Assembly (NCBI RefSeq): GCF_003555545.1
Contig: NZ_CP032157.1
Location: 6,824,546-6,888,545 of the forward strand
Reading direction: 5' to 3'
DNA from: Paraflavitalea soli
GTDB taxonomy: Bacteria; Bacteroidota; Bacteroidia; Chitinophagales; Chitinophagaceae
DNA: 64,000 nucleotides
Shown: in pieces, positions 8,680 to 39,621 of the stretch
Position numbering within the stretch: position 1 is the stretch's first letter
Layout: every line of letters starts with the position of its first letter
Notes under the pieces: model-generated
Told to the model about the DNA's origin: nothing
Database searches by the model: none
The model's input: the letters and a program-made list of their open reading frames with translations, nothing else
Translations under genes and position numbers: made by a program

Positions 8680-9906
8680 TTAAGGCTTGAGCTGGTCGTT
8701 GTTGGCCAGTGGGGTATACTCATACACCACTTCATAAGGTGATTTGCGGAGACTGGCTAATAACCGGCCAATGGGCAGGTCTTCTTTTTGGGGTGTGGGC
8801 TCGCACACGGAGTATTTGTTACCATTATAAAGGATAGACTCTCCCCGGGGCTTATCAAATTGTACTGCGATCGTTACGTGTTTAGGGTAAGACAGTACGA
8901 TCATGGGCAGGTTATAAATTTCCTTTACGAGGTAAAAGAATAAGGCAACCCTGTCTTCACAATCGCTTTGTTCATAAAATAAGGTCTGCTCGGGTGATAA
9001 GCGCTTTTCACTGCCAAAGTTTTTTGAATCTGTTTCAAACAGAAATGCATACCGTGTAAACCGCATGAGGTAGTCTACGCCATTTTTGGTACTCATCCGT
9101 TTCACATTCTTCCTGAGCAGGGGGATAAGAGACTGATAGGTTTCTTTACTGAGTGGGATATTGAGCTGGGATTCATAATCGACGGTAGGATAATTGGTAA
9201 AGAGGGTGATTACCTGTGGATTCAGTTTTACCTTAAAATGGTAATCGTTGTCATTATAGGTAAAATGCAGGTCTTTTTCCTCGTAATCCAGGGGGCTGAA
9301 CTCGGGTAACCGGCGGATCTTATAGGAGAATCTATTTTCTGCTGCTGCTTCGGGAACGTTGATGGCGGTGAATTTTTCCTTGAGAAAATTGATGTCTTTG
9401 TAGTCGTGATAATTCAGGCACACATACTGTTTGCCGTTGTTGATGCGGGTAGGAATATTGTAAACGTCCTCATCACTACGTACATAAAACAATACACGGT
9501 CGGCCGACACGGCCAGGAAGGCATCGTAACCGGTTTGGGTGAGCAGAAACCATTTGTATAAGGTATACCGCAGGTAATCGTCGGCTTTGGGACTTATGTA
9601 CTGGGCTGTTTTGCGTATGAGCTGATAAAACAGCCAATCATCGGGTTTGTATTTTTCTTTGTACGTCTTTAGTGCATTGACGATGGGACGATAATAATCA
9701 TTGTTTATACTGGCATAAAATGCCTGAATAGACGGTTCGGTCAAAGGGGGCTGAAAAGACTGCAGTTTTGCTTTATCAAAAGCAAACTGAACAGGAGCGC
9801 CACAAAAGTCGAATTGAATAATGGAGGAAGGGTACTGCGTCTGCGAAAGAACAGGTGGAATGGTTGTAACCAGGAGTAGCCATAATATGATAACCCTCGT
9901 TTTCAC
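8680..9906 (-). CDS. Secreted transglutaminase-like protein of unknown role
   Basis: Hypothetical exported protein, 408 residues from the GTG at 9906. An upstream in-frame TTG (9945) lies at or above the likely -7 box, and the signal peptide VKTRVIILWLLLVT fits the GTG start. The C-terminal third has the order of a transglutaminase-like Cys-His-Asp fold: YEQSDCEDRVALFFYLVKE (candidate Cys), YPKHVTIAVQ (candidate His), then YSVCEPT with a candidate acidic partner. The N-terminal two thirds match nothing I recognise. The gene is monocistronic and convergent with the beta-helix lipoprotein. A weak Pho-box-like array precedes it. Peptidase, amidase or purely structural roles are all possible. Confidence 0.6.
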   Translation of the reverse strand: MKTRVIILWLLLVTTIPPVLSQTQYPSSIIQFDFCGAPVQFAFDKAKLQSFQPPLTEPSIQAFYASINNDYYRPIVNALKTYKEKYKPDDWLFYQLIRKTAQYISPKADDYLRYTLYKWFLLTQTGYDAFLAVSADRVLFYVRSDEDVYNIPTRINNGKQYVCLNYHDYKDINFLKEKFTAINVPEAAAENRFSYKIRRLPEFSPLDYEEKDLHFTYNDNDYHFKVKLNPQVITLFTNYPTVDYESQLNIPLSKETYQSLIPLLRKNVKRMSTKNGVDYLMRFTRYAFLFETDSKNFGSEKRLSPEQTLFYEQSDCEDRVALFFYLVKEIYNLPMIVLSYPKHVTIAVQFDKPRGESILYNGNKYSVCEPTPQKEDLPIGRLLASLRKSPYEVVYEYTPLANNDQLKP

Positions 9907-9931
9907 GACAAGCCCTTGTATACCTAATTTA

Positions 9932-10000
9932 CAAAAAAATATCAATTGTGCCTACTAAGCCTGTAATAGGTTGTTTATGAGGGTATTAATTATAGGTTAC
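9932..10000 (-). promoter_or_regulatory. Candidate promoter with degenerate 11-bp repeats
   Basis: Read on the minus strand, GTAACC starts at 10000, TTAATA at 9989, ATAAAC at 9978 and ATTACA at 9967, each 11 bp apart. The last is 26 bp from TA at 9941 of a -7-like TATTTTTTTG. Only the first two hexamers match well and the -7 box is over-long, so this is a weaker version of the arrangement at 2743, 4259 and 13819. Confidence 0.35.
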
Positions 10001-10132
10001 AAAAGGTAATACAGGAGAATTGTTAACCGTAGGGTAAACTTCCAGTAAAACGGGCATAACACCAGTTGGCTAACTTGCACCCGCCAGACAGCCATCATTA
10101 ATGATCGATATAAGAAAACAGTTTTTAAAGCG

Positions 10133-10186
10133 TAGAATTTTCTCATGTGACTGCAGCCGTGCGATCTCCATCGTGACGGCTTTTTT
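10133..10186 (+). repeat. Leader-plus-terminator element, copy A
   Basis: Contains TTCTCATGTGACTG followed at once by a hairpin (GCCGT/ACGGC outer stem at 10156-10160 and 10176-10180, inner GCGAT/ATCG, loop CTCC) and six T. The second copy 410 bp downstream keeps the unpaired leader and the stem. It looks like the 3' end of a small RNA or a mobile terminator module. Confidence 0.5.
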
Positions 10187-10542
10187 ATGATCCGGGTGGG
10201 AGGCCAACTTCATAACCTGTAGCGGATAGTAAAAGCGGGTAGTTGAATTGTAAGCTGTTGATGACTGTTAGCGGCAGTCAAATAGTGTTTAATTATAAAT
10301 TGACCAAGGGAAGTGGGTAGTGTGTGGTAATGCTGTGTGTTCGTACTTTTACCAGCGTGTCTGTGGTATTGTGAAATTATCATGCGGAGCAGCCGTTCAT
10401 GGGCTGAATGATGCCGGTGATACATATTGCTAACTCGCATATTTATCATGAGAATGAAATAGTTGGGCATATATGAATTTCATAATCATCCAGCTACGTA
10501 CCTTTACTGTCTAATCTGATCAATACAACTTTTTATAAGTGA

Positions 10543-10597
10543 GAGGAATTCTCTCATGTGACTGACGCCGTTCGATTTCTATCGTGACGGCTCTTTT
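10543..10597 (+). repeat. Leader-plus-terminator element, copy B
   Basis: Contains TCTCTCATGTGACTG, then a hairpin (GCCGTTCGAT at 10567-10576, loop TTCT, ATCGTGACGGC at 10581-10591) and a T-rich tail. It is the second copy of the 10133-10186 element. Base changes lie mainly in the loop and in stem positions that stay paired or bulged. A TACCTTTA box at about 10498-10505 could start a short transcript ending here. Confidence 0.5.
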
Positions 10598-10798
10598 GTT
10601 TTATACCAACGGTTCCGGAGTGTCCTTGGATAGGCATCATTTTAGCTGTATAAAAAGTTGGTGTAAATTTTCCTCATTTTGCGGCATCGACCTATGTGTC
10701 ATCTATGATGTACAAACGCAATTATAAGCGCCTCTAAATTATCTGGTACGGTCATTGATATTTATGTTCTAAAATATTTATTACCTAAATGTCAATCT

Positions 10799-11002
10799 AT
10801 GAAAACATTACTTATTGCAGTGGCCGTGCTCTTTACGGCTACTACGACCATGAGCGCTTTGGGCACTGAGAACCGGGCCGTAACACTCTCTGAAGAAGGT
10901 TATTCTGGTAATTTTCAGGATACCACCAAGAAGAAGAAAGACAAAAAGAAAAAAGACACAACAGAAAAGAGGGATACAACGACCGCTCAGTACCATCATT
11001 AA
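10799..11002 (+). CDS. Small secreted Lys-rich protein
   Basis: A 67-residue protein with a clear signal peptide (MKTLLIAVAVLFTATTTMSA) and a short mature part that ends in a highly charged KKKKDKKKKD segment flanked by DTT repeats. It matches no family I recognise. It is transcribed alone and followed by a strong terminator 25 bp after its stop, which supports a real gene. The composition suggests an unstructured, cationic periplasmic peptide. Function unknown. Confidence 0.6.
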   Translation: MKTLLIAVAVLFTATTTMSALGTENRAVTLSEEGYSGNFQDTTKKKKDKKKKDTTEKRDTTTAQYHH

Positions 11003-11085: not shown

Positions 11086-12120
11086 TTAGTTAAAGATCAG
11101 TTCGGGATAGGGGATGTCGAGTTTGTATTTGAGATCAGAGCAACGGAACATCAGGATGTTGATAATAGCCTCAGTGGAATACTGGTAACTGATGGTGGGA
11201 GTTACAGGATCGTTTACCCAGTTATTAAAAGTATCTGTGAAATCATCATCCAGCTTATCTAATGTCTTAACGCCAATCTTTTTCAAGGCGGCGGCATTGC
11301 ACATTTGCTCATATTGGCCCTTGATGGGTATGGCGATCATCTTTTTCTTCAGGTGTAAGGCTTCTGCGGGAGTTTCAAATCCTGCGCCGCAAACAATACC
11401 ATGGCAACTGATGAGACTACGATTGAAATCATCCTTATTAACGGGTGTAAGGGTAATATTGCCGATGGTCTTTCTCTCTTTGGTTTGACGGGAGAAGACT
11501 TCGAAGCGGTGATCTTTAAAAGGGGCCAATAAGGCCATCAATTCATTGTCGCAGTAGGATGGCAGGTATACAGTAATATGACCATCATTCCTGGCTTCTG
11601 ATTCCAGGATCTCTTTTTTGATAACGGGAGAGAAGATGAAATCGTCGTATGATTCAAAATGAAGCCCTATATACTGTGTTGCTCTTGCATAGTTCTGCAG
11701 TATCCATTCGCCAAACCTGTTGGTTTTTTCGGGTCTTGGGGTTTTGTCGGAAAGGAAGCTGGCCTGGTGACCAAAGTTTACAGAAGGCACTTTTTTACGG
11801 GCACAGGCCAGGGAGGTGATAATTTCAAAGTCATTCAACACGAGATCGTATTTCTCAACGGGCAGGTCCCTGGCTTCTTTCATGATCCGGAGTGGGGAGA
11901 TACTGCGGGTAAGTTTCCAATAATCGAGGGATCCCTTACAGGTATAGAAGAGGCTAAGTCCGTTGCTCCGGTATTTGACGGGAGCATCGAGGGGTAAGGT
12001 ACTGTTGGCTCCGCTGAGAAAGAGGTCTACGGTTCCAAACTTCTGCAGCCAGGGGAGTAATTCCATTGCCCGGCTGATGTGTCCGTTGCCTGTAGCCTGT
12101 AAAGCATAAAGTATTTTCAT
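11086..12120 (-). CDS. GT-B-fold glycosyltransferase family protein
   Basis: A 344-residue protein beginning MKILYALQATGNGHISRAMEL, the Gly-rich N-terminal loop of GT-B glycosyltransferases that resemble MurG/MGD synthases (Glyco_trans_1_3-like). The second half carries CHGIVCGAGFETPAEALHLKKKMIAIPIKGQYEQMCNAAALKKIG, the nucleotide-sugar binding helix region (GxGFETxxEAL...PxxGQYEQxxNA). It starts 15 bp after the LpxH-like gene and the two surely form an operon. The donor and acceptor are unknown; a glycolipid or envelope sugar is plausible given the partner. No signal peptide, so cytoplasmic or membrane-peripheral. Confidence 0.8.
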   Translation of the reverse strand: MKILYALQATGNGHISRAMELLPWLQKFGTVDLFLSGANSTLPLDAPVKYRSNGLSLFYTCKGSLDYWKLTRSISPLRIMKEARDLPVEKYDLVLNDFEIITSLACARKKVPSVNFGHQASFLSDKTPRPEKTNRFGEWILQNYARATQYIGLHFESYDDFIFSPVIKKEILESEARNDGHITVYLPSYCDNELMALLAPFKDHRFEVFSRQTKERKTIGNITLTPVNKDDFNRSLISCHGIVCGAGFETPAEALHLKKKMIAIPIKGQYEQMCNAAALKKIGVKTLDKLDDDFTDTFNNWVNDPVTPTISYQYSTEAIINILMFRCSDLKYKLDIPYPELIFN

Positions 12121-39235: not shown

Positions 39236-39252
39236 ACATATTCCATAAAGAG

Positions 39253-39308
39253 TTTAAAGGGTACGATCAACAAACGCCGTCCCGATTCCTCGGGATGGCT
39301 CTTTTAAA
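39253..39308 (+). repeat. Leader-hairpin element, copy 1 of 3
   Basis: Begins TTTAAAGGGTACGATC and continues to 39275 as an unpaired leader. Then a stem pairs GCCGTCCCGA with TCGGGATGGC over a four-base loop, followed by TCTTTT. It works as the terminator of the T9SS cargo gene ending at 39235. The leader is identical in copies at 39437 and 39557. Confidence 0.7.
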
Positions 39309-39436
39309 CCTTTAACAACAATTTTTAGTGCGGGCCCAAGGGTTTTAGTGAGTTGACTTGTCTTAGTGAATAGGGCCGCTGTGAAGAATGAATATGTGTT
39401 ACCACTCTGATTTGAAGTTATTTACATAAGAGTTTA

Positions 39437-39494
39437 TTTTAAAGGGTACGATCAACAAACGCCGTCCCGATTCTTCGGGATGGCTCTTTTAAAA
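39437..39494 (+). repeat. Leader-hairpin element, copy 2 of 3
   Basis: Same leader and hairpin as the copy at 39253, with one loop change (CCT to CTT). It has no upstream gene of its own: the 128 bp between copies 1 and 2 hold no ORF, so a short independent transcript is possible. Confidence 0.7.
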
Positions 39495-39556
39495 CTGCCA
39501 CAGCGATCAAGGGCAGTAATGAAACCCAAACCAACCGCTTATTAAAATATTAACGT

Positions 39557-39613
39557 TTTTTAAAGGGTACGATCAACAAACGGCCAGGCTTTTCTAAGCC
39601 AGGCCTTATTTTT
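39557..39613 (+). repeat. Leader-hairpin element, copy 3 of 3 (different hairpin)
   Basis: The leader TTTAAAGGGTACGATC and the next eight bases are conserved, but the hairpin is replaced by GGCCAGGCTT/AAGCCAGGCC with a TTCT loop and a T-rich tail. The tail overlaps the TATTTTTG -7 box of the TPR gene. A conserved leader with a swapped hairpin suggests that the leader is the functional part. Confidence 0.65.
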
Positions 39614-39614
39614 G
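39607..39614 (+). promoter_or_regulatory. -7 box of the TPR protein gene
   Basis: TATTTTTG ends 7 bp before the ATG at 39622, so the transcript would have almost no leader. The box shares bases with the T-rich tail of the upstream hairpin. Confidence 0.5.
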
Positions 39615-39621
39615 CAGCACT

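Follow-up and report, generated by a model that had tools for sequence, protein, structure and literature searches.

A 64,000-nt stretch of the Paraflavitalea soli genome (one contig of 8,443,189 bases) contains two short elements, copies 1 and 2, in each of which a nearly identical leader precedes a hairpin and a T-run; the whole stretch is referred to as the window, and window coordinates are those of this stretch. Most probably, the two elements are trans-acting small RNAs (sRNAs) that block the translation of selected susC-type genes, with an action like that of FopS in Bacteroides thetaiotaomicron. As such, they would be part of a family of short RNAs encoded in several copies and acting in trans, in which an intrinsic terminator comes after a 5' seed around TTCTCATGTGACTG. 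This seed would pair with the translation-initiation region CAGTCAC-ATGAGAA in the mRNAs of selected TonB receptors of the SusC type and of other exported proteins, and an sRNA covering the start codon would keep the ribosome off the AUG, leading to less receptor and probably less of its operon. The initial annotation had proposed a small-RNA locus, and this is the best reading given the terminators without an upstream plus-strand gene, the synteny of copy 2, the compensatory hairpin changes, and the complementarity to start codons.

Both copies lie on the plus strand, as do all the features assigned to them. Copy 1 has its leader TTCTCATGTGACTG at 10140-10153, a bulged hairpin at 10155-10181, and a T-run ending at 10186, whereas copy 2 has its leader CTCTCATGTGACTG at 10551-10564, a hairpin at 10567-10591, and a T-rich tail ending at 10599. 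The two 14-nt leaders have 13 nt in common, and a repeat search of the window identified the pair as a direct repeat of 52 nt (10135-10186 and 10546-10597; 87% identity, spacing of 411). The initial annotation had described a leader directly before a hairpin and T-run in two places, and this arrangement is present at 10140-10186 and 10551-10599; the leader string that it gave differs at the first base from CTCTCATGTGACTG. The putative sRNA of copy 1 (seed and terminator) was placed at 10119-10187 and that of copy 2 at 10536-10599, the 5' end being uncertain for both. Within copy 1, the seed GTAGAATTTTCTCATGTGACTG (10132-10153) is complementary to susC start regions according to duplex predictions and letter comparison, and the terminator-like hairpin with its T-run (10155-10186) was called by rule at -13.0 kcal/mol. 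The seed of copy 2 (10551-10564) was assigned from the sequence, an alignment of its relatives (A2, below), and duplex predictions, and its terminator hairpin and T-rich tail (10567-10599) passed the terminator rule. Copy 2 is also predicted to fold a 5' hairpin (GTGAGAG-GAATT-CTCTCAT, 10539-10557), which would conceal half the seed, possibly as a means of tuning it. The fold z-scores were -2.03 for copy 1, -2.60 for copy 2, and -3.78 for a further member at 7630457 in this genome (C-type), and were 0.58 and -0.92 for L001 and L012, whose stretches ended inside their terminators.

The seed recurs across the genome. The exact 13-mer TCTCATGTGACTG occurred six times genome-wide, compared with zero occurrences of the reversed pattern, which served as the control throughout, and approximately 0.25 expected at equal base frequencies. 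Terminators were called by a folding rule, and non-identical matches were classed by fixed rules. Allowing up to one mismatch, the 14-mer leader had 13 matches in this genome, comprising five leader-plus-terminator loci, four start codons on the opposite strand, three complements with a terminator, and one unclear match. The five loci are the two window copies, 4740994, 3583466, and the C-type member, and three more were found at two mismatches (7633183, 7611339, and 7462962). The initial count of two copies therefore holds for the window and falls short for the genome. In a window-only search with up to three mismatches, the number of matches was not above chance (seven matches against a shuffle mean of 4.8, with 26 of 100 shuffles reaching seven), and only copies 1 and 2 among these matches have zero or one mismatch. 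The paralogs have hairpins of unrelated sequence and differing flanks, the seed alone being common; some members (copy 2 and the C-type) have a 5' hairpin. A SAM riboswitch (RF00162, 77.8 bits; L118:135-282) was observed approximately 320 bp upstream of the two-mismatch member at 7633183.

Conservation was assessed in 13 genomes, namely five of Paraflavitalea and eight of Niastella, Longitalea, Pseudoflavitalea, and Pseudobacter. With up to one mismatch, the 14-mer had 62 matches in the five genus genomes (13, 12, 8, 13, and 16), compared with 11 for the control (0, 5, 5, 0, and 1). A terminator followed 25 of the 62 by rule and two more by eye (L079 and L106), the rule passing at 73 of 1202 random places. 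Start codons accounted for 21 matches by rule and likewise 21 by eye, after L097 was taken out as a 3' untranslated region (UTR) element and L083, with a stretch that ended early, was assigned by hand to the starts. Complements with a terminator only numbered seven by rule and six by eye (seven with L097), and the matches in no class numbered eight and seven, respectively. In the eight genomes of the other genera, 62 matches were found against two for the control, and the 60 non-identical ones were classed by rule as 25 terminators, 25 starts, three "anti", and seven none; inspection by eye assigns one of the three (L238) to the C-type sRNAs, its T-run not having passed the rule. In 11 of the 13 genomes, a SusC-type start-codon match is located at a distance of 12.7-14.3 kb from the C-type sRNA. 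Copy 1 was present in all five genus genomes and copy 2 in four, not being seen in G003 within the stretch examined there.

Copy 2 keeps its place in the genome. In 15 of 27 loci around relatives of the neighbouring glycosyl transferase gene (two of the loci being Paraflavitalea records), it adjoins that gene with a leader of up to two mismatches, and the synteny covers Paraflavitalea, Niastella, Longitalea, Pseudoflavitalea, and Pseudobacter; the element is thus conserved outside this strain. A diverged element occupies the syntenic place in three more metagenome-assembled genomes (MAGs; L162, L165, and L166). In alignment A2, which has 17 rows (the window, L068, and 15 syntenic loci), the letters of the terminator hairpin were identical throughout, and the stem letters of L162 differ yet pair. 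The 5' stem (TGAGAG/CTCTCA) was also constant in the 17 rows, with a loop varying in sequence and length. Model R1, a covariance model built from copy 2 and its relatives, scored copy 2 at 92 bits; in a search of Chitinophagaceae, which the initial annotation had suggested, it had matches under stricter filters in 8 of 147 family genomes, the present one among them.

These observations bear on the reading of the pair as a repeat or mobile element, or as plain terminators with a repeated leader, in either case with no regulatory role. A near-identical pair 411 bp apart, ending in a hairpin and T-run, would suit such an origin, to which we assign very little probability: the leader is common to sibling loci with differing hairpins and flanks, types A-D were found in all five genus genomes (copy 2 in four), and copy 2 is syntenic. 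The setting points the same way, as no plus-strand gene upstream needs termination. The copies lie in a gene-poor gap of approximately 856 bp bounded by open reading frames (ORFs) at 8680-9945 (minus strand) and 10802-11002 (plus strand), and the ORF script found only two plus-strand frames, each of 51 aa, between 8602 and 10802; hence, the hairpins are not obviously terminators for a preceding gene. The ORF at 8680-9945, upstream of the copies, had no Pfam match. A gap of 890 bp without genes had been noted initially; the gene-poor gap exists, at the shorter length, and holds an 86-aa minus-strand ORF (10210-10470), which sits between copies 1 and 2.

RNA-level evidence came from the C-type member, in which the leader was unchanged letter for letter and the hairpin varied. 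Across eight sequences and ten base pairs, all 80 cells pair, and four pairs changed on both sides. Four double-sided changes were reached by 6 of 500 shuffles and the covariation score by none of the 500, and the pairing dropped to 25-46% in slid versions of the alignment. A nine-pair set comprised only four distinct rows and has no decisive weight.

Of the 122 non-identical matches in the 13 genomes, 46 (21 in the genus and 25 by rule in the eight other genomes) place the reverse complement of the leader, CAGTCAC-ATGAGAA, over a start codon, the genes being those of SusC-type receptors and of other exported proteins. Because CAT is part of the motif, the presence of ATG had to be controlled for. 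In 39 of 94 cases, a count that includes orthologs and thus cases that are not independent, the ATGAGAA of the motif held the first (5'-most) ATG of an ORF of at least 90 aa, compared with 6 of 57 such heptamers from a 400-kb sample. CAGTCAC at -7 to -1 was found at none of 288 background starts, and one was a single letter off.

Candidate targets in this genome include the start at 7611675, which belongs to a SusC-type receptor (TIGR04056, 453.7 bits) with an adjoining SusD-like gene, and that at 7617787, also of a SusC-type receptor (with Plug and CarbopepD_reg_2 domains in the portion read). A third susC start (7606686) was found by eye, and two proteins of 226 aa and 240 aa (the latter with one mismatch) had no Pfam match. 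Among the nine proteins scanned, those of relatives include an M57 peptidase, a reprolysin-like metallopeptidase, and further receptors of the SusC type. The predicted duplex of copy 1 runs from -7 into codon 4 with 18 uninterrupted bp at 7611675 and 16 at 7617787, and resumes past a one-base bulge. The cofold gains of copy 1 were -24.3 kcal/mol (7611675), -24.0 (7617787), -21.8 (226-aa protein), -18.2 (7606686), and -10.3 (240-aa protein), and the corresponding gains of copy 2 were -20.6, -18.3, -14.0, -8.2, and -5.6. Over the 288 background starts, the mean was -3.5 and the best value -18.1 for copy 1, and -3.4 and -12.6 for copy 2; complementarity at the start codons is well above background. 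Among 30 SusC starts (L242-L271) sampled from 56 listed (217 first-look candidates), GTATGAAA was observed at or near the start codon of nine genes, compared with 6 of the 288 background starts; it could point to a different regulator or simply reflect the usual start context.

The seed could also be seen as a DNA operator, with a near-palindrome, TCTCATGTGA, binding a transcription factor and the position by hairpins and start codons being secondary. TCTCATGTGA is indeed one letter pair short of a palindrome. We regard this as very unlikely, because the leader of the sRNA class has a single orientation relative to the terminator, the C-type hairpin is maintained through compensatory changes, and the 16-18 uninterrupted bp formed with two susC genes exceed the near-palindrome. 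An overlap with the start codon is, moreover, unusual for operators.

Complements of the seed were also found in 3' UTRs. The motif CAGTCACATGAG(A/G)A lies 16-22 nt past an ORF stop and directly before a terminator in four of the five genus genomes (L019, L065, L095, and L097, belonging to G000, G001, G003, and G004), and the letters of the following terminator hairpin differ between species. The upstream ORF in L019, the only one of these scanned, encodes a TonB-receptor beta-barrel (PF00593). Two further places have a complement with a terminator (L016/L103 and L013). These 3' UTR complements could titrate the sRNAs as a possible RNA sponge, which is the least secure part of our interpretation; literature searches on sponge RNA in Bacteroidota returned nothing. 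They also raise an outcome other than repression for the same pairing RNAs, in which the complementary sites, in mRNAs as in 3' UTRs, serve mainly as sponges or the pairing stabilises or activates the mRNA. The recurrence of the complement beside a terminator, in a TonB-receptor 3' UTR and at the further places, favors this outcome, which we consider improbable since the 46 matches on start codons are where coverage of the AUG is expected to repress, and FopS represses in vitro (PMC11697453).

In two outgroup MAGs (L165 and L166), the element in the syntenic place of copy 2 carries a changed seed, TTCTCATGCAGTTG. With up to one mismatch, TTCTCATGCAGTTG had three and nine matches in these MAGs, respectively, compared with none for the control in either; the Paraflavitalea seed had one and zero matches in the same MAGs against two and one for the control. 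The 12 matches comprise two sRNAs, three starts on which we rely, two flagged through short ORFs only, and five without a reading. One start, found in both MAGs, belongs to a gene with an amidohydrolase domain (CAACTGT-ATGAGAA, in which the odd letter leads to a G-U pair), and another, found in one MAG, to a GH97 gene (TAACTGC-ATGAGAA). This is suggestive of seed and start sites changing together across lineages, short of proof, in genomes that are close and in a small set. As evidence of translational repression it is indirect.

Several results weigh against the assignment of copies 1 and 2 as translation-blocking sRNAs. The case for their being transcribed, for pairing inside cells, and for repression as the outcome comes from sequence, and inspection of the promoter region by eye settled no start site or 5' end. 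Covariation was absent from the alignments of copies 1 and 2 themselves. Allowing up to two mismatches, the 14-mer had 38 matches in this genome against 33 for the control, with no overall excess. Enrichment was also lacking at the family level, where 59 other genomes had 34 matches against 36 for the control. The gains of copy 2 with two candidate targets (-8.2 and -5.6) are inside the background range, and its own stem occludes part of its seed. As a class, SusC starts pair no better than background, as 1 of the 30 sampled reached -15 kcal/mol with the seed of copy 1 compared with 4 of 288 background starts; thus, targeting can extend to no more than some of the SusC genes.

Among the distant family genomes, 29 matches from 28 stretches were classed by rule as eight sRNA-like, six starts, one "anti", and 14 none, where the matches of G006 lie at the same contig coordinates as those of G066 in the eight-genome set and are counted in both. 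Three leader-plus-terminator elements in these genomes (L122, L130, and L314) have, by eye, a common upstream stretch, CCCCTACAGCT.

The 3' neighbours of the copies are a 66-aa ORF (10802-11002, plus strand) with no Pfam match and the glycosyl transferase gene (11086-12120; PF13528), which has 86-87% identity to the Paraflavitalea records L163 and L150. An Rfam cmscan of the window returned no family at gathering score, the FopS model perhaps not being in the Rfam copy used, and the matches for 9950-10800 were weak and to unrelated families only. The copies had been called unrelated to an element at 39253 with the same layout and a different sequence. The layout is indeed the same, and the 39253 elements carry another leader. 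The term "unrelated" fits the leaders; the copy-2 model also matched this area weakly, largely via the terminator half (39431-39492, 25.5 bits, E 0.006; 39238-39307, 20.5 bits, E 0.073). Three copies of the leader AAGGGTACGATCAACAAACG were observed at 39255-39615, each followed by a hairpin of its own, different from the others, and a T-rich tail; with up to two mismatches, the 20-mer of this leader had three matches in the genome, all in the window.

A broader proposal is offered tentatively, as one that we hold with somewhat less than even belief: the system may be a post-transcriptional network of soil Chitinophagaceae in which structurally unrelated sRNA scaffolds use a single 14-nt address on the start codons of selected exported-nutrient genes, with 3' UTR sponges and a co-drifting seed and address, and without Hfq. 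If the sRNA assignment is true, start-codon targeting of SusC-type receptors by multicopy sRNAs would be a wider strategy of Bacteroidota, beyond gut Bacteroides, and the common seed would define a regulon that can be tested directly in soil bacteria. Families with a fixed seed and free hairpins could also be searched for by sequence only, as terminator leaders whose complement recurs at start codons.

Hfq (PF17209) was found in none of the five genus genomes by a search that was positive in 5 of 14 known control genomes, and all five encode RRM_1 proteins (8-10 matches each). Given the RRM proteins and the negative search for Hfq, a likely partner of the sRNAs, by analogy only, is an RRM protein of the RbpB kind. 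The family was not described in the available parts of the literature on small RNAs of Chitinophagaceae, SusC of Chitinophaga, and start-codon sRNAs or TonB receptors in Bacteroidetes.

The elements were compared with three known systems. An sRNA of Caulobacter crescentus reportedly acts on a TonB-dependent receptor. Post-transcriptional control by this sRNA is Hfq-independent (PMC6237742). The likeness to our elements, in Hfq independence and receptor type, is one of description, and the Caulobacter case involves one sRNA in a different phylum. GibS of B. thetaiotaomicron is also trans-encoded, with a single-stranded 5' seed pairing with start-codon regions; unlike our elements, it is a 145-nt RNA from a single gene with two seeds and different targets (PMC7366714). 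FopS of the same species is approximately 65-70 nt long, has 14 paralogs, and consists of a single-stranded 5' seed and a terminator; it pairs at the susC start codon and blocks translation in vitro, a block relieved by the RRM protein RbpB (PMC11697453). Our elements are like FopS in being multicopy paralogous genes (five loci with up to one mismatch and three at two), in the layout of 5' seed and terminator, where the length rests on a predicted 5' end, and in a seed complementary to susC-type start regions (two SusC-type starts here and many in relatives). FopS and GibS have a seed sequence in common (R1/R1'). The likeness of our elements to FopS is one of layout and pairing site and does not imply kinship by descent. 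In contrast to FopS, which is reported for Bacteroidaceae and has a single-stranded seed, the present elements occur in Chitinophagaceae, the seed of copy 2 is partly within a stem, and the paralogs have unrelated hairpins with the seed alone in common, some with 5' hairpins and with possible complements in 3' UTRs.
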